Positions 7,972-20,062 of a DNA stretch of 64,000 bases are shown here, piece after piece. The notes below the pieces were generated by a model. That model was not told the origin of the DNA. It saw only the letters and a program-made list of their open reading frames with translations, and ran no database searches. The number at the start of each line of letters is the position of its first letter. The stretch's first letter is position 1. Where the stretch lies: contig JAJPHD010000018.1 in the NCBI GenBank assembly GCA_021325455.1, forward strand, positions 1 through 64,000, read 5' to 3'. This stretch comes from Actinomycetota bacterium. Its GTDB lineage: Bacteria; Actinomycetota; Acidimicrobiia; Acidimicrobiales; JAJPHD01. The translations under genes and the position numbers were made by a program.

Positions 7972-9849
7972 TCAGCCCAGGGAGGTCAGCCAGGCGTTGT
8001 GCAGGCTGGCGTAGCGGCCTTGGGCGGAGCGGAGCCGCGCCGGCGGCCCGTCCTCGACTATGCGACCCGCCTCCATGACGAGGACCCGGTCGGCGATCTC
8101 CACCGTTGTCAGCCGGTGGGCGATGATCAAGGCCGTGCGCCGGGCCAGGACCGTGCGCAGGGCCCTTTGCACCAGCCTTTCGGTGGGCACGTCTAGCGAC
8201 GAGGTGGCCTCGTCCAGGACCAGGACCGCCGGGTCGGCCAGGAAGGCCCGCGTGAAGGCGAGGAGCTGGCGCTGGCCGGCCGAGAGCCGCCCTCCCTCCT
8301 TGCCCACGTCGCTGTCGTACCCCTGGGGGAGGCTGGTGATGAAGGAGTGGGCCCCGGTGGCCCGGGCGGCGGCCACGATCTCGGGACGGCTGGCGCTCGG
8401 GCGCCCGAAGCCGATGTTGTCGGCCACCGTCCCCGAGAACACATAGGTCTCCTGGGTCACCATGACCACGGCCGACCGCAGGGTGTCCTCGGCCAGGTCC
8501 CTCAGGTCGACGCCGTCCAGGGTGACCCGCCCCGCGGTGGGGTCGTAGAAGCGGGCGAGCAGGCGGGCCAGCGTGGTCTTGCCGGCCCCGGTGGCCCCGA
8601 CCAGGGCTACGGTCTGGCCGGCGGGCACCCACAGGTCCAGGTGAGGCAGCACCAACCGGTCCCGGTAGCCGAAGGACACCCCCTCGAAGCGGATCTCCCC
8701 TCTCGGGGCAGGGAGCGGCACGGGGGCCTGGGGAGGGGGGACCGAGGGGACCTCCTCCAGCACCCCGGACAGCTTCTCCAGGGCGGCGCTGGCCGACTGG
8801 AACTGGTTGTAGAACTGGCTGATGTCCTGCATGGGGTCGAAGAATTGGCTGAGGTAGAGGAGGAAGGCGGTGAGCACCCCGACCGTCATCTGGTGGTGCA
8901 GCACCAGGTAGCCCCCGTAGAGGAGCACCACCCCGGTCATGACGTTGCCGATCAGCTTGATCCCCGGCCCGTAGACCGCCACCAGCTTGAACGAGCGCTC
9001 GTTGGCCCGGCGGTAGCGGTTGTTGACCTCGTCGAAGATCTCCTGGTTGCGGGGCTCGCGCCGGTAGGCCTGGACCGCCCTGATTCCCCGCATGGAGTCC
9101 ACGAAGTGCACGATGACGAGGGCGACCGCCTCCCGGGTGCGCCGGTACGCCACAGCCGTCTGCCGGCGGAACCAGGCCGTGAGCCACACGAGGACGGGGA
9201 AGGAGGCCAGGGTCACCAGGGCGAGGCGCCAGTCCAGGATGAGCATGAACACGCCCGTGCCGACCACGAGCAGCACGGCCGAGGCCAAGCTATCCACACC
9301 ATCCTCGAGGAGGGTGGCGATGGCCTCTATGTCCGAGGTCAACCTGGAGATGACCCGGCCCGAGGTGTAGCGCTCGTGGAAGGCCAGGGAGAGGCGCTGG
9401 AAGTGGTCGAACACCCGCCGGCGCAGGTCGAGCAGCATGTCCTGGCCTATACGTCCCGACAGCCCGAAGAACCAGCGCCGGGCGCCGGCCTGGGTCAGGG
9501 CCACGCCCAGCACGGCCAGGCTGGTGGCCACGAGGGTCCCGGCCCCCCTCCCGTGGAGGACCGGGGGGATGCCCCGGTCGATCCCGACCTTCACCAGGTA
9601 GGGGGACGCCAGGCGGGCCAGGTTCTCGGCCAGGACCAGGGCGGCCAGCAGCCACAGGGAACGCCGGTGGGGGGTCAGGAGGGTCCCCAGCAGGCGCCGG
9701 GAGCGCTCCCGGAGGAAGAGGGAGGCCCGCTGGGGGAGGTCGTCGACCTCCTCGCTGGCCACCCCCCGCCAGGCGTCGATGCTCTCCCGGCCCGGCGCCG
9801 GAGCGGCGCCCGGGGCGCCGGTCCCGTCCCCCAGCGCTGTCGAGCTCAC
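7972..9849 (-). CDS. ABC exporter half-transporter, canonical ATPase site subunit
   Basis: The 625-aa protein is a six-helix exporter domain (residues about 60-350) fused to a nucleotide-binding domain with Walker [15 protein letters not shown], signature [15 protein letters not shown] and Walker [14 protein letters not shown], which has the catalytic glutamate. The signature reads LSAGQ instead of LSGGQ. The GTG start at 9849 overlaps the TGA of the adjacent exporter gene, so the two are co-translated and should form a heterodimer of the TM287/288 or BmrCD type, exporting drugs, lipids or peptides. The frame is open far upstream, but that part is antisense to the partner gene. Substrate specificity cannot be inferred. 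Confidence 0.85.
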
Positions 9850-11612
9850 GAGGCCTCCTCGGCCAGGTCCTGGTCGTCGTCCGCCTCCTGGGACAGGATG
9901 GCCCGGTAGGCGGGGACGCCGGCCATCAGCTCGGCGTGGGTCCCGGTGTGGGTGATGGTCCCCTCCTGCAGGAAGGCGACCCGGTCGGCCAGGGCGATGG
10001 TGGAGGGCCGGTGGGCCACGATGATGCCCGTCGTGCCGGCAAGGACCCGCCGGAGCGCCTCCTCCACCTTGGCCTCGGTGTGCACGTCGAGGGCGGAGAG
10101 CGTGTCGTCGAGGACGAGCACCCGGGGGTGGCTGATCACGGCCCGGGCCAGGGCCAGGCGCTGGCGCTGGCCGCCCGACAGGGTGAGCCCCTGCTCGCCG
10201 ATCCTGGTGGCCAGGCCCCAGGGGAGGTCGTGGACGAAGCCGGCCTCCGCCACGACGAGAGCCTCGGCCACCTGCTCCTCGCTCGCCCCCGGGGCCCCGA
10301 GGGTCAGGTTCTCGGCTGCGCTGGCCGAGAACAGGGTGGGGTCCTCGAAGGCCGTGGCCACGGCTGAGCGCAGGCAGCGGAGGTCCAGCTCCCTCACGTC
10401 CACGCCGTCCAGGGTCACCCGGCCCGCGCTCACGTCGTAGAGGCGGGGGACCAGGGCGCAGAGCGTGGTCTTGCCCGAGCCCGTGGCTCCCACCAGGGCG
10501 ACCGTCTCCCCCGGGTCGATGTCCAGCCACACGTCCGACAGTGCCTCGGTCTCCGCCCCCGGATAGCGGAAGGAGACTCCTTCGAACCTGATCCTGCCTT
10601 CCACCCGGGCCAGCCGGCGGTGGCCTCCCACGATCTCCGGCTCGGTGTCGAGGACCTCGTAGATACGATCGGCGGCTGTCATGGCCTCCTGGCCCGAGGC
10701 GATGATGTAGCCGAGGGCCTCCACGGGCCACTCCAGCTGGATCAGCAGGGTCACGAAGGCCACCAGGCCGCCCAGGGTGAGGGTGTGGTGGCCCACGGCC
10801 AGGGCCCCGAACAGGACGATCACCACCAGCACCAGGTTGGGGATCAGCTCCAGCACGGCCCAGAACCCAGCCGTGAGGCGGACCTTCTCCATGGAGGTGG
10901 CATAGAGGGCCCGGGCCCCCCGGTCGAAGCGGGCGGCCATCAGGCGGCGCCGGCCGAAGGCCTTGATGACCCGGATCCCCCCTGCGGACTCCTCGACCAC
11001 CGTGGTCAGGTCACCCTGCTGGTCCTGGACCTGGCGGGACACCTTGATGTAGGCCCGCTCGAAGCGGGCCGACAGGTAGACGACCGGCACCACGGCGGCC
11101 GCCACCGCCACGCCGAGCAGGAGGTCCAGGTGCATGAGCAGGCCTATGACGGCGGCGACCTGGAGGCTGTTCACGAGCAGGAAGATGAGGCCGAAGCCGA
11201 GGAAGCGCCGGATGGTGGACAGGTCCACCGTGGCCCGTGACAGCAGCTGGCCGCTCTGCCAGGAGTCGTGGAAGGAGGCCGGCAGCCGCTGGAGGTGGGC
11301 GTAGAGGTCACTGCGGATGGCGGTCTCGATGCCGAGGACGGCGTCGGCCTGGATCCAGCGGCGCACGAAGGACAGGCCGGCGTCGGCCAGCCCCAGGGCC
11401 ACTGCCAGGAGGCTCAAGGGGATGAGGAGGCCTCCGAGGCCGTGGACCAGGGGGCCGTTCACCACGTCCTTGGCCACGAGGGGGACCGCCGTGGCCGCCG
11501 CCACCCCCGCTGCCGCCGCCCCCGCCATGACCACCATCTGTCCCCGGTAAGGGGTGACATAGCTGCGGGTGCGCCACAGCGACCGCAGGGCTCGCGGGGC
11601 TTCGTGGCGCAT
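9846..11612 (-). CDS. ABC exporter half-transporter, degenerate ATPase site subunit
   Basis: This 588-aa transmembrane/ATPase half-transporter is the first gene of the pair. It shows Walker [15 protein letters not shown], a canonical signature LTLSGGQRQRLALARAV and Walker B VLVLDDTLSALD, where aspartate replaces the catalytic glutamate. That substitution, matched with a normal glutamate in the partner, is the hallmark of heterodimeric exporters with one hydrolytically impaired site. The frame continues to 11726 and contains an ATG at 11690. I prefer ATG 11612 because a TACCGT -10 box lies 7 nt before it and the helix-rich exporter domain starts shortly after. The transported compound is unknown. 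Confidence 0.82.
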   Translation of the reverse strand: MRHEAPRALRSLWRTRSYVTPYRGQMVVMAGAAAAGVAAATAVPLVAKDVVNGPLVHGLGGLLIPLSLLAVALGLADAGLSFVRRWIQADAVLGIETAIRSDLYAHLQRLPASFHDSWQSGQLLSRATVDLSTIRRFLGFGLIFLLVNSLQVAAVIGLLMHLDLLLGVAVAAAVVPVVYLSARFERAYIKVSRQVQDQQGDLTTVVEESAGGIRVIKAFGRRRLMAARFDRGARALYATSMEKVRLTAGFWAVLELIPNLVLVVIVLFGALAVGHHTLTLGGLVAFVTLLIQLEWPVEALGYIIASGQEAMTAADRIYEVLDTEPEIVGGHRRLARVEGRIRFEGVSFRYPGAETEALSDVWLDIDPGETVALVGATGSGKTTLCALVPRLYDVSAGRVTLDGVDVRELDLRCLRSAVATAFEDPTLFSASAAENLTLGAPGASEEQVAEALVVAEAGFVHDLPWGLATRIGEQGLTLSGGQRQRLALARAVISHPRVLVLDDTLSALDVHTEAKVEEALRRVLAGTTGIIVAHRPSTIALADRVAFLQEGTITHTGTHAELMAGVPAYRAILSQEADDDQDLAEEAS

Positions 11613-11619
11613 TTCTGCC

Positions 11620-11625
11620 ACGGTA
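11620..11625 (-). promoter_or_regulatory. -10 box TACCGT deciding the exporter start
   Basis: TACCGT on the minus strand (11625-11620) lies 7 nt upstream of ATG 11612. This is the same geometry as other candidate leaderless genes here and favours 11612 over the upstream ATG at 11690. Confidence 0.35.
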
Positions 11626-11672
11626 GCGCGGTGCCCCCGTCGTCCACGAGCGAATTTCCCGATCGCGCCAGC

Positions 11673-11856
11673 TAGACTGACCCACTCCATGTAGGCGAGC
11701 GATGGGAGGAGGTGAGGCGCGTGCAAGCGGGTGAACCCCCGAGTACCTGCCTGTCCCCCACCTCACCGTCCCCGCCGCCTCGTCCAGGGCCAGGCATCGT
11801 CTCCTCGCTCTGACGGCCCCGGGCGGCGAGGTTCCTTCACCGTCCTGGAGGTTGCC
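11673..11856 (+). promoter_or_regulatory. Promoter and candidate structured leader of the MgtE_N/Nramp operon
   Basis: A plus-strand -10 box TAGACT (11673-11678) predicts a start near 11685, leaving a leader of about 170 nt before the ATG at 11857. The leader can form a closing stem in which GCGAG (11695-11699) pairs with CTCGC (11804-11808) and CGATG (11700-11704) with CATCG (11795-11799). Inside it is a 7-bp hairpin, GGTGAGG (11711-11717) with CCTCACC (11761-11767). A Shine-Dalgarno GGAGG sits just before the ATG. The length and position suit a metal-responsive riboswitch, but apart from AGGTGAGGC the conserved M-box segments are not recognisable. Confidence 0.35.
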
Positions 11857-13203
11857 ATGGCCCGCCGTCCCCCTGTCCCCACCGCCCCCCTGCGCTCCCG
11901 CCTGACCCACCGCTCCCAGGAGTGGTCCCAGCGGGCCACCACGTCGAAGGCCGTGCGGGAGGCCATCGTCTCCCTGGCCGGGCTCGTGGGCCGCCCTGTC
12001 CGCAACGAGGAGGGCAAGGAGGTGGGCCGCCTGGTCGACGTGGTGGCCCGCTGGAGCCAGGACTCGCCCTACCCTCCGGTCACCGGGCTGGTGGTGAGGG
12101 TCGGGCCCCGGCTGGCCTTCATCGACATCGACCGGGTGGCCCGGCTGGCCCACGCCGAGGTGCTGCTGGCCTCGTCGGAGCTGGTGCTGCGGGACTTCAC
12201 CCGCAGGGACGGAGAGGTCCTGCTGGCCCGGGACGTTCTGGACCACCAGCTCATCGACGTGGACGGGGTGAAGGTGATCCGGGCCGCCGATCTCTACCTG
12301 GCACCAGCGGGTGGCCGCATCCGCCTGGTGGGCGTGGACGTGAGCCTCCAGTCCCTCCTGCGGCGGCTGGGGCCCGCCCGCTGGCGCCCCCGGCCCACCC
12401 CCGACCGGGTGATCGACTGGGCGGCCATCCAGCCCTTTGGGGACCCGGCCCACGAGGTGCGCCTGCGCGGCTCCAACCAGGGCCTGCGCCGGCTGCGTCC
12501 CGGGGAGCTGGCCGACCTCCTGGAGGACCTGAACCGCTCGGCCCGCCAGGAGCTGCTGGAGGTCCTGGAGCCGGAGACGGCCGCCGACGCCTTGGAGGAG
12601 ATGGAGCCCGACGAGCTGGAGGCGTTGCTTCGCGACGCCGACCCCTCGCGGGCCGCCTCCCTTCTCACCTCCATGGAACCTGACGAGGCCGTTGACGCCC
12701 TGCGGGACCTGGACGCCGAGGCCCGCCAGGAGCTGCTGGCCCACATGCCCGCTGAGCGGGCCGAGGCCCTGGCTGCCCTGCTCGGCTACAAGGAGGACCG
12801 GGCGGGCGGGTTCATGACCACCACCCTGGCCCTGGCCGGGATGGACGAGACCGTGGGGCAGGTGCGGGCCAAGCTGGCCGGCATGCGGGAGCACCGGGCC
12901 GACATCGACGGCGTGGCCGTGGTGGACGAGGACGGCCGGCTCGTGTCGGACCTGCTGCTGTTCGACCTGCTGGTGTCGGGAGCATCGGACCCCGTCCGGG
13001 CCCTGGTGGAGGACCAGGAGCCGGTCACCGTGGGCCCCGAGGCCTCGGTGGAGGAGGTGGCAGCCCGGCTGATCGAGAGCCGACGCTCGTCCCTGCTGGT
13101 GGTGGAGGGGGGCCGCCCGCTGGGGCGCATCCTGGCCGACGACGTCATCGATGCCCTTTCGCCCGAGAAGGGCCGGCTGCACTTCCCCCGGCTGCTCCAG
13201 TAG
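11857..13203 (+). CDS. Soluble PRC-barrel / MgtE N-domain / CBS-pair protein (Mg2+ sensor module)
   Basis: This 448-aa protein has no membrane helix. Residues about 30-110 form a PRC-barrel-like region (LVGRPVRNEEGKEVGRLVDV, VGPRLAFIDIDRVARL). Residues about 200-310 are an MgtE_N-type helical superhelix with repeats such as LEDLNRSARQELLEVLEPE, LEEMEPDELEALLRDADP and LTSMEPDEAVDALRDLD. Residues about 310-440 are two CBS motifs (GFMTTTLALAGMDETVGQV, PVTVGPEASVEEVAARLIES). In full MgtE channels the N and CBS domains bind Mg2+ and gate the pore; here the pore domain is absent. The next gene, 3 bp away, is an Nramp-family transporter, so I infer this protein senses Mg2+ and controls it. The ATG at 11857 has GGAGG 6 nt upstream. 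Confidence 0.82.
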   Translation: MARRPPVPTAPLRSRLTHRSQEWSQRATTSKAVREAIVSLAGLVGRPVRNEEGKEVGRLVDVVARWSQDSPYPPVTGLVVRVGPRLAFIDIDRVARLAHAEVLLASSELVLRDFTRRDGEVLLARDVLDHQLIDVDGVKVIRAADLYLAPAGGRIRLVGVDVSLQSLLRRLGPARWRPRPTPDRVIDWAAIQPFGDPAHEVRLRGSNQGLRRLRPGELADLLEDLNRSARQELLEVLEPETAADALEEMEPDELEALLRDADPSRAASLLTSMEPDEAVDALRDLDAEARQELLAHMPAERAEALAALLGYKEDRAGGFMTTTLALAGMDETVGQVRAKLAGMREHRADIDGVAVVDEDGRLVSDLLLFDLLVSGASDPVRALVEDQEPVTVGPEASVEEVAARLIESRRSSLLVVEGGRPLGRILADDVIDALSPEKGRLHFPRLLQ

Positions 13204-13206
13204 GCC

Positions 13207-14583
13207 ATGAAGATCCGCCCCGGAGAGGAAGAGGCCCGCGCCGCACCGCCGGTGGCCTCCGGCCGCCCCCGGCCCGAGGACCGCGCCCGGCCTCGCCACT
13301 CCCCCCTCCGGAGGGCCCGGGCCGACCAGGGGGGGCTGGCCCCTGCCTCCGAGGGCCCCCGCGGATGGCGCCGGCCCTTGGCCCTGCTCGCCGTGGTAGG
13401 CCCCGGCCTCATCGCCGCCAGCGCCGGCAACGACGCCGGCGGCATCATCACCTACGCCTCGGCCGGAGCCCAGTTCCGCTACCGGACCCTGTTCTTCATG
13501 GTCCTGGTGACCGTGGCCTACGTCGTGGCCCAGGAGATGACCGCTCGCCTGGCGGTCCACAGCGGGAAGGGCCTGGCCGCCCTGATCCGGGAGGAGTTCC
13601 CCCTTCGCATAGCCGCCTTGGCCATGGTCTGCCTGGTCGTGGCCAACGTGGGCCTGGTGGTGACGGAGTTCGCCGGGATCGCCACCGCCCTCGGTCTGTT
13701 CGGCGTCTCCCGGTACATCTCCGTCCCGGTGGCGGCCGTCCTCATCTGGGCCCTGGTGCTGTTCGGCAGCTATCGGTACGCCGAGCGGGTCTTCCTCATC
13801 CTGTCGGTGGCGTTTCTCGCCTACCCGGTGGCCGCCTTCCTCGGCCATCCCCGCTGGTCCCAGGTGGGCCTGCAGACCGCCTACCCGCACTTCGTGGCCT
13901 CGCCCTCCTTCATCCTCCTCGGCGTGGCCCTCATTGGCACGACCATCACCCCCTACATCCAGCTCTACACCGCTGGGGCCCTGGTCGACCGGGGGGTCGG
14001 CCCCGACGAGTACCCGCTGGAGCGGATCGATGCCGTGGGGGGAGCCATCGTGTCCGACGTCATCTCCTGGTTCATCATCGTGGCCACGGCGGCGGCCATC
14101 GGGGGAACGGGCCCCCTCTCCTCCGCCCACCAGGCAGCCCGGGCCCTGGCCTCGGTGGCCGGGGGCAAGGGGGCGGTGCTCCTCTTCGGCCTGGGGCTGC
14201 TCGGCGCCTCGGCCCTGGCGGCCGCCGTGGTCCCCCTCTCCACGTCCTACGCCGTGGCCGAGGCCATCGGGGTGGAGCGCTCCGTCTCCCGGCGCTTCAG
14301 CGAGGCCCCGCTCTTCCTCGGCCTGTTCACCTTCCAGCTCCTGATCGGGGTGTGCGCCGTCCTGGTGCCGGGCAACCTGGTCCACCTGATCGTGAACACC
14401 CAGGTCCTCCAGGGCATCATCACCCCTGTCATCCTGGCCTTCATCCTGATCCTGGCCAACCGGACGAGCGTCCTCGGCGACGCTGCCAACGGCCCCGTCC
14501 TCCGCAAGGTGGCGGCCGTGGTCGTGGTGGCCATCGCCTGCCTGTCGGCCGTGCTCCTGGTGCAGGCCGCCGTCGGGTTCTAG
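13207..14583 (+). CDS. Nramp-related divalent metal transporter, probably Mg2+ type (NRMT-like)
   Basis: The 458-aa protein has a 55-residue Arg/Pro-rich N-terminus and about 11 membrane helices of the Nramp/LeuT fold. Helix 1 reads GPGLIAASAGNDAGG (residues 65-79), where Mn/Fe Nramps have DPGN. Helix 6 reads GTTITPY (residues 244-250), where they have ATVMPH, so the metal-binding methionine is replaced by Thr248 and the histidine by Tyr250. Loss of that methionine is the known mark of Nramp-related Mg2+ transporters. Asp76 is kept. The gene follows the MgtE_N/CBS protein by 3 bp in one operon, which agrees with Mg2+ import. The assignment to Mg2+ is inference; transport has not been shown. 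Confidence 0.78.
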   Translation: MKIRPGEEEARAAPPVASGRPRPEDRARPRHSPLRRARADQGGLAPASEGPRGWRRPLALLAVVGPGLIAASAGNDAGGIITYASAGAQFRYRTLFFMVLVTVAYVVAQEMTARLAVHSGKGLAALIREEFPLRIAALAMVCLVVANVGLVVTEFAGIATALGLFGVSRYISVPVAAVLIWALVLFGSYRYAERVFLILSVAFLAYPVAAFLGHPRWSQVGLQTAYPHFVASPSFILLGVALIGTTITPYIQLYTAGALVDRGVGPDEYPLERIDAVGGAIVSDVISWFIIVATAAAIGGTGPLSSAHQAARALASVAGGKGAVLLFGLGLLGASALAAAVVPLSTSYAVAEAIGVERSVSRRFSEAPLFLGLFTFQLLIGVCAVLVPGNLVHLIVNTQVLQGIITPVILAFILILANRTSVLGDAANGPVLRKVAAVVVVAIACLSAVLLVQAAVGF

Positions 14584-14678
14584 GCCAGGTGCCCGGTGGA
14601 GGGGCCCGTGTTGCGCCGCCCCCCCTGCGGCCGCGAGGCTCTCGGCCCGTGTGGGCGAGGCGACCTGGAGGTGAGGGC

Positions 14679-15974
14679 CTGCGGATCGCGCTCCTCGCCT
14701 ACCGCGGGAACCCCCACTCGGGAGGCCAGGGTGTCTATGCCCGGTACCTGAGCCGGGAGCTGGTGGGCCTGGGCCACCACGTGGAGGTGCTCGCCGGCCC
14801 CCCCTACCCGGTCCTCGACCCCGGGGTGCGGTTCGTCCCGGTGCCGAGCCTCGACCTGTACCGCCAGCCCGACCCCTTCCGGGTCCCCCGGCTCTCGGAG
14901 TTCCGCTCCCCCGTCGATGCCCTGGAGTTCGCCATCATGTGCACGGCCGGGTTCCCCGAGCCGCTCACCTTCAGCCTCCGGGCTCGCCGGCTGCTGGCCC
15001 ACCGGCGCCAGGACCTGGACCTGGTCCACGACAACCAGGGGCTGGGCCGGGGGCTCCTCGGCATGATGGCCGACGGGTGGCCTGTGCTGGCCACGGTCCA
15101 CCACCCCATCACGGTGGACCGGGACCTGGACGTGGCTCACGCCGCCAGTTGGCGCCGGAGGCTGACCCTGCGCCGCTGGTACGGGTTCATCGGCATGCAG
15201 GTCAAGGTGGCCCGCCGGCTGCCCCGGATCATCACGGTGTCCGAGTCGTCCCGCCGGGACATCACGTCCCACATGGGGGTGCCCGGGTCCCGCCTGGCCG
15301 TGGTGCCGGTGGGGGTGGACCACCAGCTGTTCCGGCCCCGGCCCGAGGTGAGGCCGGTGGCGGGGCGGATAATGACCACGGCCAGCGCCGACGTGCCGCT
15401 CAAGGGGCTGGTGCCTCTGCTGGAGGCCCTGGCCAAGGTCCGCACCGAGCGTCACGCCGAGCTGGTGGTGGTGGGCTCCCCCCGTCCTGAGAGCCGGGTG
15501 AGGCAGACCATCGAGCGCCTGGGCCTGGACCGGGCCGTGCGCTTCGTGGCCGGCGTCAGCGACGACGAGATGGTCCGGCTGTGGGCCGAGGCGGAGGTGG
15601 CGGCGGTCCCTTCCTTGTACGAGGGGTTCTCGTTGCCGGCGGTGGAGGCCATGGCCTGCGGGCGTCCGGTGGTGGCCACCACAGGGGGTGCCCTGCCCGA
15701 GGTGGTGGGCACCGACGGGGAGACCGGGCTCCTGGTCCCCCCCGGGGACGCAGGAGCCCTGGCCCAGGCGCTGGGGCGGGTGCTGGACGATCCGGTGCTG
15801 GCCCGCCGGCTGGGGGCGGCGGGGCGCCGACGGGTGCTGCGCCGGTTCACATGGCGGGCCACGGCCGAGGGGACCGTGGAGCACTACCGGGCCCTCCTGG
15901 AGGGACGGGGACCGGCCATGGCCGGCAGCGGGAAGCAGAGGGTGGGCAACAGGGCCGTCGGGCCGTACGCCTGA
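14679..15974 (+). CDS. Family 4 glycosyltransferase, probable CTG start
   Basis: The 431-aa protein begins with RIALLAYRGNPHSGGQGVY, the N-terminal Rossmann strand and Gly-rich loop of GT4 enzymes. The second domain holds VPVGVDHQLFRP, ADVPLKGLVPLLEAL, and the nucleotide-sugar-binding VPSLYEGFSLPAVEAMACGRPVV with the E-x7-E motif. It should transfer a sugar from an NDP-sugar to a lipid or glycan. In frame there is no ATG or TTG near this start; CTG at 14679 has GGAGG 7 nt upstream, while the nearest GTG (14649) has no Shine-Dalgarno sequence and adds ten atypical residues. It forms an operon with the methyltransferase and terpene-cyclase-like genes, 4 bp and then an overlap away. Confidence 0.8.
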   Translation: MRIALLAYRGNPHSGGQGVYARYLSRELVGLGHHVEVLAGPPYPVLDPGVRFVPVPSLDLYRQPDPFRVPRLSEFRSPVDALEFAIMCTAGFPEPLTFSLRARRLLAHRRQDLDLVHDNQGLGRGLLGMMADGWPVLATVHHPITVDRDLDVAHAASWRRRLTLRRWYGFIGMQVKVARRLPRIITVSESSRRDITSHMGVPGSRLAVVPVGVDHQLFRPRPEVRPVAGRIMTTASADVPLKGLVPLLEALAKVRTERHAELVVVGSPRPESRVRQTIERLGLDRAVRFVAGVSDDEMVRLWAEAEVAAVPSLYEGFSLPAVEAMACGRPVVATTGGALPEVVGTDGETGLLVPPGDAGALAQALGRVLDDPVLARRLGAAGRRRVLRRFTWRATAEGTVEHYRALLEGRGPAMAGSGKQRVGNRAVGPYA

Positions 15975-15978
15975 GCCG

Positions 15979-16692
15979 GTGCTGACCGTCGACTACGGCC
16001 GCCTCGGGGTCCGCCCTGGTGAGGTGGTCCTCGACCTCGGGTGCGGCGGGGGGCGTCACTGCTTCGAGGGGGTGCGCCGGGGGGCCAGGGTCGTGGCCCT
16101 GGACGCCGACGGCGCCGAGGTGGCTGCCGTGGCCGCCATGCTGGCCGCCCTGGACGCCGACCCCGGCTCCCGGCCGGCCGGCCGGGGCCTGGTGGCCCGG
16201 GGCGACGCCCGGCGCCTGCCCTTCCCCGACGCCACCTTCGACCGGGTCATTGCCTCGGAGGTGCTCGAGCACATCCCCGCCGACCAGGACGCCATGGCCG
16301 AGCTGGCCCGGGTTCTCCGCCCGGGCGGGACCATGGCCGTCACCGTCCCCCGCTTCGGGCCCGAGCTGGTCAACTGGGCCCTCTCGGACCGCTACCACTC
16401 CCGTCCCGGCGGCCACGTGCGCATATACCGGCGGTCCCAGCTCGTCTCCCGCCTGACCCGGGCCGGCCTGCGGCTGAGGGGGGTGGGCTACGCCCACGCC
16501 CTCCACTCGCCGTACTGGTGGCTCCGCTGCCTGGTGGGGGTGGACCGGGACGACCACCCCCTGGTGGCCGCCTACCACCGGCTCCTCGTGTGGGACATCA
16601 CCCGGCGCCCGGCCCTCACCCGGCTGGCTGAGGGCCTGCTCAACCCGCTCCTCGGCAAGAGCCTGGTGGTCTACCTGGAGCGGCCCCGGTGA
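15979..16692 (+). CDS. Class I SAM-dependent methyltransferase
   Basis: The 237-aa enzyme has motif I VVLDLGCGGGRHCFEG, an acidic residue after strand 2 (VVALDADG), FDRVIASEVLEHIPADQDAM and LRPGGTMAVTVPRFGPEL, all typical of Methyltransf_11 proteins. The C-terminal YHSRPGGHVRIYRRSQL and SPYWWLRCLVG segments may form the acceptor site. The GTG start at 15979 lies 4 bp after the glycosyltransferase stop and its own stop overlaps the next gene start, so the three are one translational unit. This suggests that it methylates the lipid or glycan handled by its neighbours. The acceptor is not known. Confidence 0.78.
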   Translation: MLTVDYGRLGVRPGEVVLDLGCGGGRHCFEGVRRGARVVALDADGAEVAAVAAMLAALDADPGSRPAGRGLVARGDARRLPFPDATFDRVIASEVLEHIPADQDAMAELARVLRPGGTMAVTVPRFGPELVNWALSDRYHSRPGGHVRIYRRSQLVSRLTRAGLRLRGVGYAHALHSPYWWLRCLVGVDRDDHPLVAAYHRLLVWDITRRPALTRLAEGLLNPLLGKSLVVYLERPR

Positions 16693-17786
16693 GGGCCTCG
16701 GCCTCCTGGGGGGGGCCGGGCCCGGAGGTGCCGGCGCTGGCGGGTGTGCTGAGCGCCGACGAGGTGCGGGCCACAGCCGCCTCCATCGCCGCCGTGCAGC
16801 TCCGGGCGGGCATGATCCCCTGGTTCCCCGGAGGGCACGCCGACCCGTGGAACCACGTCGAGGCGGCCATGGCCCTGGCCGTGGGAGGTCTCCTGGCCGA
16901 GGCCGAGCGGGCCTATGAGTGGCTGGCGGCCCTGCAGCACCCGGACGGGTCGTGGTGCAACTACTACCTGGGTGCGGGGGTGGAGCAGCCCCGCCGGGAC
17001 ACCAACGTGTGCGCCTATGTGGCGGTCGGGGTGTGGCACCACTTCCTGATCACGGCCGACCGTGGCTTCCTGGAGGCCCTCTGGCCCGTGGTGGAAAGGG
17101 CCCTCGACTTCGTGCTGGACCACCAGCGGCCGGGAGGAGAGATCACCTGGGCCGTCGAGCCCGACGGGACTCCCGGCCGCTTCGCCCTTCTCACGGGGTC
17201 CTCCTCCATCCACATGAGCCTGCGCTGCGGGCTGGCCGCTGCCCAGCACCTGGGCCTCGAGCGCCCCCAGTGGGAGCTGGCGGCGGGCCGGCTGGCCCAT
17301 GCCGTGGCCAGGCGGCCCGACGCCTTCGAGCCCAAGGACCGCTGGGCCATGGACTGGTACTACCCGGTCCTGGCCGGCGTGGTGAGGGGGGCGGAGGCCC
17401 AGGTCCGGATGGAAGGGCGCTGGGCGGACTTCGTCATGGACGGGCTGGGGGTGCGCTGCGTCTCGGACCGCCCCTGGGTGACGGCGGCGGAGACGGCCGA
17501 GTGCGCCATGGCCCTCGATGCCGCCGGGCTGCGCCACGAGGCTGTGCAGCTGCTGGGCTGGGCCCAGGCCCTCCGCCACGAGGATGGCTCCTACTGGACG
17601 GGGGTGGTGCACCCTGAGGGGGTGCACTTCCCCGGGGGAGAGCGCAGCACCTACAGCGCCGGAGCCATGGTGCTGGCCGTGGACGCCCTGGGGGGACGGG
17701 GCCCCACCTCGGGCCTGTTCCGGGGCGAGGAGCTGCCCTCCGGCCTGGACCTGGACGAGGTGGCCGAGGCGTCCGCCGAGGCCTGA
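16689..17786 (+). CDS. Terpene-cyclase/prenyltransferase-fold (alpha/alpha toroid) protein
   Basis: The 365-aa protein is predicted to be an alpha/alpha barrel built of repeats with QW-like signatures (LAALQHPDGSWCNYYLG, WAQALRHEDGSYWTGVV), as in squalene/hopene cyclases, prenyltransferase beta subunits and six-hairpin glycosidases. I see neither the DxDD motif of squalene cyclases nor a clear zinc site, so a binding or glycosidase-like role is as likely as terpene cyclisation. The GTG start overlaps the methyltransferase stop (GTGA). Co-translation with a GT4 glycosyltransferase and a methyltransferase argues for a shared pathway making or modifying a glycolipid or glycan. Confidence 0.65.
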   Translation: MRASASWGGPGPEVPALAGVLSADEVRATAASIAAVQLRAGMIPWFPGGHADPWNHVEAAMALAVGGLLAEAERAYEWLAALQHPDGSWCNYYLGAGVEQPRRDTNVCAYVAVGVWHHFLITADRGFLEALWPVVERALDFVLDHQRPGGEITWAVEPDGTPGRFALLTGSSSIHMSLRCGLAAAQHLGLERPQWELAAGRLAHAVARRPDAFEPKDRWAMDWYYPVLAGVVRGAEAQVRMEGRWADFVMDGLGVRCVSDRPWVTAAETAECAMALDAAGLRHEAVQLLGWAQALRHEDGSYWTGVVHPEGVHFPGGERSTYSAGAMVLAVDALGGRGPTSGLFRGEELPSGLDLDEVAEASAEA

Positions 17787-17841
17787 GCCCTGGCGGGGGA
17801 GCGGCAGGACCCGGCGGGCGACGGCTCGGAACGGGGACTAG

Positions 17842-20062
<2,221 letters not shown>

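Follow-up and report, generated by a model that had tools for sequence, protein, structure and literature searches.

According to Shin et al. (2014, PMC4072509), an MgtE-N-like gene lies in the context of most genes encoding Nramp-related Mg2+ transporters (NrmT, here NRMT), and a cytoplasmic feedback was proposed there; Mg2+ transport was demonstrated for two Clostridium acetobutylicum NRMTs, and M-box control is known for a subset of the NrmT-associated MgtE-like genes without being a required feature. A solved member of this branch, EleNRMT from Eggerthella lenta, carries both Mg2+ and Mn2+, and the NRMT signature consists of DxxG in helix 1 and TxxA/T in helix 6 (PMC8806188). Here we analyze a two-gene unit of this kind in a 64,000-nucleotide stretch of contig JAJPHD010000018.1 from an Actinomycetota bacterium (the window), in which a soluble MgtE-like protein (the sensor) is encoded upstream of an NRMT. 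It is proposed that the pair is probably an NRMT-branch SLC11 transporter for the uptake of Mg2+, possibly also of Mn2+, together with its cytosolic regulatory subunit, the latter being a portable Mg2+ feedback module. The pair and the feedback idea were already published in 2014, so that the central idea of a preliminary description of this DNA, regulation of a secondary Mg2+ transporter by a detached MgtE sensor, is a rediscovery. The window matches the operons of that report in being a two-gene unit with an MgtE-N-like gene adjoining an Nramp-related transporter, and differs from the subset preceded by an M-box.

Conservation of the gene pair

The linkage between sensor and NRMT genes is far above chance. 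In 296 Actinomycetota genomes, 44 of the 60 strong NRMT matches (Nramp E < 1e-60) are immediately preceded by the sensor gene in the same orientation, compared with none of the 12 weakest Nramp matches; of the intermediate ones (E 1e-60 to 1e-44), 11 of 22 adjoin a same-strand sensor. A same-strand sensor is present in the fetched stretch at 55 of 80 named NRMT loci, which come from several phyla. The conserved gene order that the preliminary description made a condition of its proposal is therefore present. Sensor and NRMT distances correlate (Mantel r 0.87 for 79 pairs, the largest of 1000 shuffles giving 0.10), a result that shared descent alone could also give. Of nine loci from outside Actinomycetota that were tested, six have an M-box Mg2+ riboswitch immediately before the operon. 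Loci L044, L050 and L060 hold either two NRMT genes or two sensor-NRMT units in close proximity.

The transporter belongs to the NRMT branch

EleNRMT (7qia) is both the best solved relative of the transporter (E 4e-93) and its best fold match (Foldseek TM-score 0.95). The two proteins are about 43% identical, fall in the same clade and share the DxxG/Txx(A/T) site, with TxxA in helix 6 of EleNRMT and TxxT in the window. The alignment bears out the NDAGG and GTTITPY motifs read in the preliminary description, as well as the absence of both the MntH AxxM methionine and the following histidine; DAGG and TTIT fit the NRMT signature. In the phylogenetic tree, which was built by a quick method and flagged by the program for the long branches separating its two sides, a clade of 62 NRMT-motif rows including the window (99%) is separated from 17 MntH rows including E. 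coli MntH (100%), so that the check proposed earlier places the transporter with NRMT and apart from MntH by tree and binding-site motif alike. MntH-type Mn2+ transporters have the SLC11 fold in common with it (Foldseek TM-score up to 0.89 to DraNramp) but carry a DPGN/AxxM-H site, and the MntH family TIGR01197 gives 46 bits where 272.5 are needed. The candidate assignment as a Mn/Fe Nramp was dropped in view of the missing DxxN and A/CxxM site together with the separate clade. The NDAGG/GTTITPY combination is identical to that of all seven Bacillota NRMTs of our set, the group to which the Clostridium NRMTs with demonstrated Mg2+ transport belong, and differs from the commonest Acidobacteriota combination, NDPGG/GTTITPW. 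A second, weak Nramp-like match in the host genome (G000:C14:50430-50825, locus L002) scores 25.7 bits, below the family cut-off, within a 513-residue frame.

A probable MgtE sensor without its channel

The sensor is arranged as a tandem PRC region, MgtE_N, a CBS pair and a short C-terminal tail. It has no membrane helix, and Pfam finds no membrane domain in it, in agreement with the earlier reading of MgtE_N and CBS regions free of membrane segments, and the protein resembles the cytosolic domain of MgtE (2oux) with a Foldseek TM-score of 0.82. It reaches 83 of the 232.75 bits required for the MgtE channel family TIGR00400 and lacks the membrane domain that holds pore Asp432. With Thermus thermophilus MgtE (2yvx/2zy9) it shares the N domain, the CBS pair and the acidic positions of Mg4, Mg6 and Mg7; unlike that protein it lacks the plug helix, the membrane domain and the ATP-site residues, and has the tandem PRC region added at its N terminus.

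For a site map, 34 sensors of the window's clade were placed on T. thermophilus MgtE, with Mg2+ sites (Mg4, Mg5, Mg6 and Mg7) assigned after PMC5882242 and ATP-site residues after PMC5529423. The Mg4 residues D91 and D247 are retained in 34/34 sensors, the D95 position (Mg6) is D or E in all 34, and the E59 position (Mg7) is D in all 34, while the ATP contacts R187 and F227 are lost. Retention of the N-domain Mg2+ sites supports the preliminary idea of a Mg2+ sensor. In place of the plug helix there is a tail with the consensus PERGRLHFPRLL, in which P436 (97%), R440 (82%), F443 (82%) and R445 (88%) are conserved among 34 relatives; its predicted local distance difference test (pLDDT) score in the AlphaFold2 model is below 50. 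The alternative of a decayed MgtE fragment was dropped because of the protein's own conserved PRC region and tail.

The PRC region as a candidate docking module

A PRC region occurs in every uncut NRMT or DUF1003 partner and in none of 30 canonical MgtEs. Among soluble NRMT partners from several phyla, seven of the twelve invariant residues fall at positions 129-188; what had been described as an added PRC-barrel of unknown purpose is instead the region in which the partner protein varies least. Within the second repeat (PRC2), Q131, D134 and R142 are present in 98, 100 and 100% of 109 partners (all NRMT-associated except one ATPase fusion, with CBS-less and MgtE_N-less forms included), compared with 5, 10 and 5% of 20 DUF1003-neighbouring sensors, while G57, A219 and M273 are equal in the NRMT-associated and DUF1003-neighbouring sets. 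The DUF1003-linked sensors form one clade (100%), and the contrast therefore represents a single evolutionary event. Because these three residues are near-invariant in NRMT partners and not in DUF1003 neighbours, PRC2 is a candidate docking module for the transporter.

Several partners are reduced to little more than this region. In Mycobacterium (L051:3165-4088 and L054:3033-3941) and in L060:7835-8716, the protein encoded beside the NRMT start consists of PRC and part of MgtE_N without CBS, the partner's stop codon overlapping the NRMT start in L051. PRC-only proteins of about 200 residues are encoded directly 3' of the NRMT in L018:2771-3346 (+) and L027:755-1372 (-).

Relatives with a membrane part and other partners of the module

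In Coriobacteria-like and related Actinomycetota, an MgtE-like membrane domain is still present in many of the NRMT partners. The position of the pore residue Asp432 is never D in 38 NRMT-partner entries (some genes fetched twice; 25 distinct ones entered the tree set), nor in 13 further proteins with an NRMT elsewhere, counted without the ATPase fusion L196, whereas it is D in 30/30 canonical MgtEs of the same phylum. The helix 2 GN motif follows the same pattern, with 30/30 canonical MgtEs carrying it and none of the membrane-bearing partners. The safest membrane alignment, that of L010 (375 residues to 2yvx, E 1e-72), places a G at D432. Because the pore aspartate is lost in all of them, these relatives of the sensor look like dead channels by their sequences. 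A form with a single helix branches from within the membrane-bearing clade (98%), which indicates that the membrane part was lost in that lineage; partners with one C-terminal membrane helix occur in the EleNRMT-related loci L015, L017, L020, L022, L023 and L030, whereas the window's partner has none. The deep branches of a tree of the N and CBS domains lack resolution and do not order soluble and membrane-bearing forms. A predicted fold of the dead-pore partner L104 has five long helices in its membrane part (pLDDT about 60), with a predicted TM-score (pTM) of 0.44, too weak for a fold search.

The module is also found with other proteins. In 20 of 20 soluble PRC-MgtE_N-CBS genes from genomes or loci without an adjacent NRMT (L218-L237), a DUF1003 gene (PF06210; Pfam-confirmed in six) is immediately downstream or overlapping, and no DUF1003 open reading frame (ORF) is present in any fetched NRMT locus. 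The DUF1003 neighbour is a two-helix membrane protein, and the association suggests that this group of DUF1003 proteins has a function related to Mg2+. In genomes G240 and G198, PRC-PRC-MgtE_N-CBS and a complete Mg2+-translocating P-type ATPase are fused in a single ORF of 1317 residues, which scores 1099 and 1077 bits for the ATPase family TIGR01524 against a cut-off of 611. The fusion occurs in two of the 31 genomes of G240's class, in two families, with 86% identity at the junction. Of all single observations, this natural fusion to a Mg2+ importer hints most strongly that the module regulates Mg2+ transport, and it favours the view that the module is used with further Mg2+ transporters. 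We advance more tentatively the wider view that PRC-PRC-MgtE_N-CBS could be a portable feedback subunit acting on NRMT (in soluble, one-helix and dead-pore forms), on DUF1003 proteins and on a fused MgtA-type ATPase, with PRC2 as the adaptor and pore-less MgtEs regulating a different Mg2+ transporter.

Proposed mechanism and alternative explanations

We infer that the sensor binds Mg2+, docks on the transporter in a complex and inhibits it. At high cytosolic Mg2+, the ion would bind at the acidic sites that are retained and so bridge N domain and CBS pair, and the bridged module would close and damp NRMT transport; at low Mg2+ the module would open and transport would go on. The tandem PRC region, PRC2 above all, would dock on the transporter, and closure may be passed on by the basic-hydrophobic tail found in place of the MgtE plug helix. 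Several observations weigh against this mechanism. D226, half of Mg5, is replaced by R in 33/34 sensors, and the plug-side acids, presumably D214, E216, E255, E258 and D259 of sites Mg2 and Mg3, are lost, the E258 position being R or K in 30/34. With half of Mg5 lost and the plug sites gone, the mechanism cannot be MgtE's own. No sensor lies within about 4 kb in 25 of the 80 NRMT loci, mostly from Acidobacteriota, and no M-box was found at window positions 9500-17000 or in five Acidimicrobiia-type loci. A read-through fusion of the two genes, with TAG translated as Q, was folded by AlphaFold2 with a 92-row alignment holding seven natural pairs besides the window; its domains are confident (pTM 0.62) but the halves are not placed and no interface is defined, and the model was not used as evidence. 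In the one published test of an adjacent MgtE-like gene, rescue was unchanged when the Acidobacterium capsulatum MgtE-like protein was co-expressed, and clostridial NrmT complementation was independent of the MgtE-like protein (PMC4072509).

An alternative, which we consider rather unlikely, is that the soluble protein serves as an assembly or stability partner, Mg2+ buffer or chaperone without gating transport; a chaperone role was also raised by Shin et al. (PMC4072509). The CBS-less and PRC-only partners beside NRMTs (L051, L054, L018 and L027) speak for it, implying that something besides Mg2+ sensing by N and CBS domains can suffice. It is less probable still that the pair handles Mn2+ and not Mg2+, with the NRMT importing Mn2+ and the MgtE_N/CBS module retuned to sense it. 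The A. capsulatum NrmT, whose gene adjoins an MgtE-like gene, fully rescued a Mn2+ transport mutant and only weakly a Mg2+ one, and Mn2+ transport was suggested for that protein (PMC4072509); EleNRMT takes both ions (PMC8806188), and the sensor clade shows the changes E59 to D and D226 to R. However, the helix 1 and helix 6 motifs of the window are those of Bacillota NRMTs and not the commonest Acidobacteriota ones, the methionine that selects transition metals is absent, M-boxes precede relatives, and elsewhere a Mg2+ ATPase carries the module as a fused part. As to docking, it is conceivable, if somewhat doubtful, that the PRC2 residues serve fold upkeep and disappeared during a decay of PRC2 in the DUF1003 lineage, without bearing on docking. 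The single origin of that lineage (100%) is compatible with this, and the D134/G137 pattern partly resembles a general PRC-barrel loop; but D145 (20/20) and D129 (16/20) are kept there, so that the repeat was not simply lost, and Q131, D134 and R142 persist in PRC-only partners.

Locus and genome context

The two genes are on the same strand with a gap of 3 bp, and ORF calls reproduce exactly the coordinates and spacing given in the preliminary description (Table 1). The host genome is of the Acidimicrobiia kind (28 contigs, 96% complete); it contains a single MgtE_N match and one CorA, and no MgtE membrane domain was found in it. The nearest named relatives are from Acidimicrobiia and other Actinomycetota.

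Table 1. Coordinates of the gene pair and its features in the window, and of the ATPase fusions in their loci
Feature	Position	Strand	Basis or remark
Sensor gene, 448 residues	11857..13203	+	ORF, ATG 11857, stop 13201-13203; GGAGG just 5' of ATG
PRC-barrel 1, residues 37-105	11965..12171	+	PF05239 2.6e-5; strands at 47-104 in AlphaFold2 model
PRC2, second PRC-like repeat and closing segment, residues 116-193	12202..12435	+	Contains Q131, D134, R142
MgtE_N, residues 213-314	12493..12798	+	Pfam 2.3e-24; acidic at MgtE E59 (here D), D91 and D95 positions
CBS pair, residues 317-434	12805..13158	+	Pfam 2.8e-12 (two stretches); MgtE D247 and D250 positions retained; ATP-site residues gone
C-terminal tail SPEKGRLHFPRLLQ, residues 435-448	13159..13200	+	Stands where MgtE has plug helix
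Transporter gene (NRMT), 458 residues	13207..14583	+	ATG 13207, stop 14581-14583; PF01566 1.5e-71
Helix 1 metal-site motif NDAGG (DxxG)	13429..13443	+	Alignment
Helix 6 metal-site motif GTTITPY (TxxT; no methionine, no histidine)	13936..13956	+	Alignment
ATPase fusion ORF	L238:1778-5731	-	
ATPase fusion ORF	L239:1090-5043	-	

Divergent ATP-binding cassette (ABC) exporter genes lie upstream of the pair at 7972-11726 (-), ABC membrane and ATPase domains being confirmed for 9846-11726. In the region 3' of the pair (14583-20062, +), which includes a glycosyltransferase, a methyltransferase, a MarR regulator and a major facilitator superfamily transporter, Pfam shows nothing metal-related, and the ORF at 16689-17786 (+) has no Pfam match. 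No other riboswitch was found in the window; three sub-threshold long non-coding or small nucleolar RNA matches are taken as chance.

Significance

The available part of the Shin et al. text (PMC4072509) makes no mention of PRC repeats, dead-pore partners, DUF1003 or ATPase contexts, or persisting Mg2+ sites, and no paper in the open-licence literature searched treats PRC-barrel and MgtE together or DUF1003 and magnesium together. We provisionally regard as new the N-domain Mg2+ sites kept while plug and ATP sites are lost, the dead-pore relatives, the PRC2 residues and the ATPase fusion. For the MgtE-like gene beside NrmT, whose role has been an open question since 2014, the comparison yields testable points: three PRC2 residues for docking, Mg2+ sites expected to bind, the CBS-less and PRC-only partners, and the ATPase fusion. 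If the proposal is true, one sensor module would give feedback to unrelated Mg2+ transporters, a DUF1003 membrane protein would become a candidate component of Mg2+ homeostasis, and channels with a dead pore would join the proteins reused as regulators.
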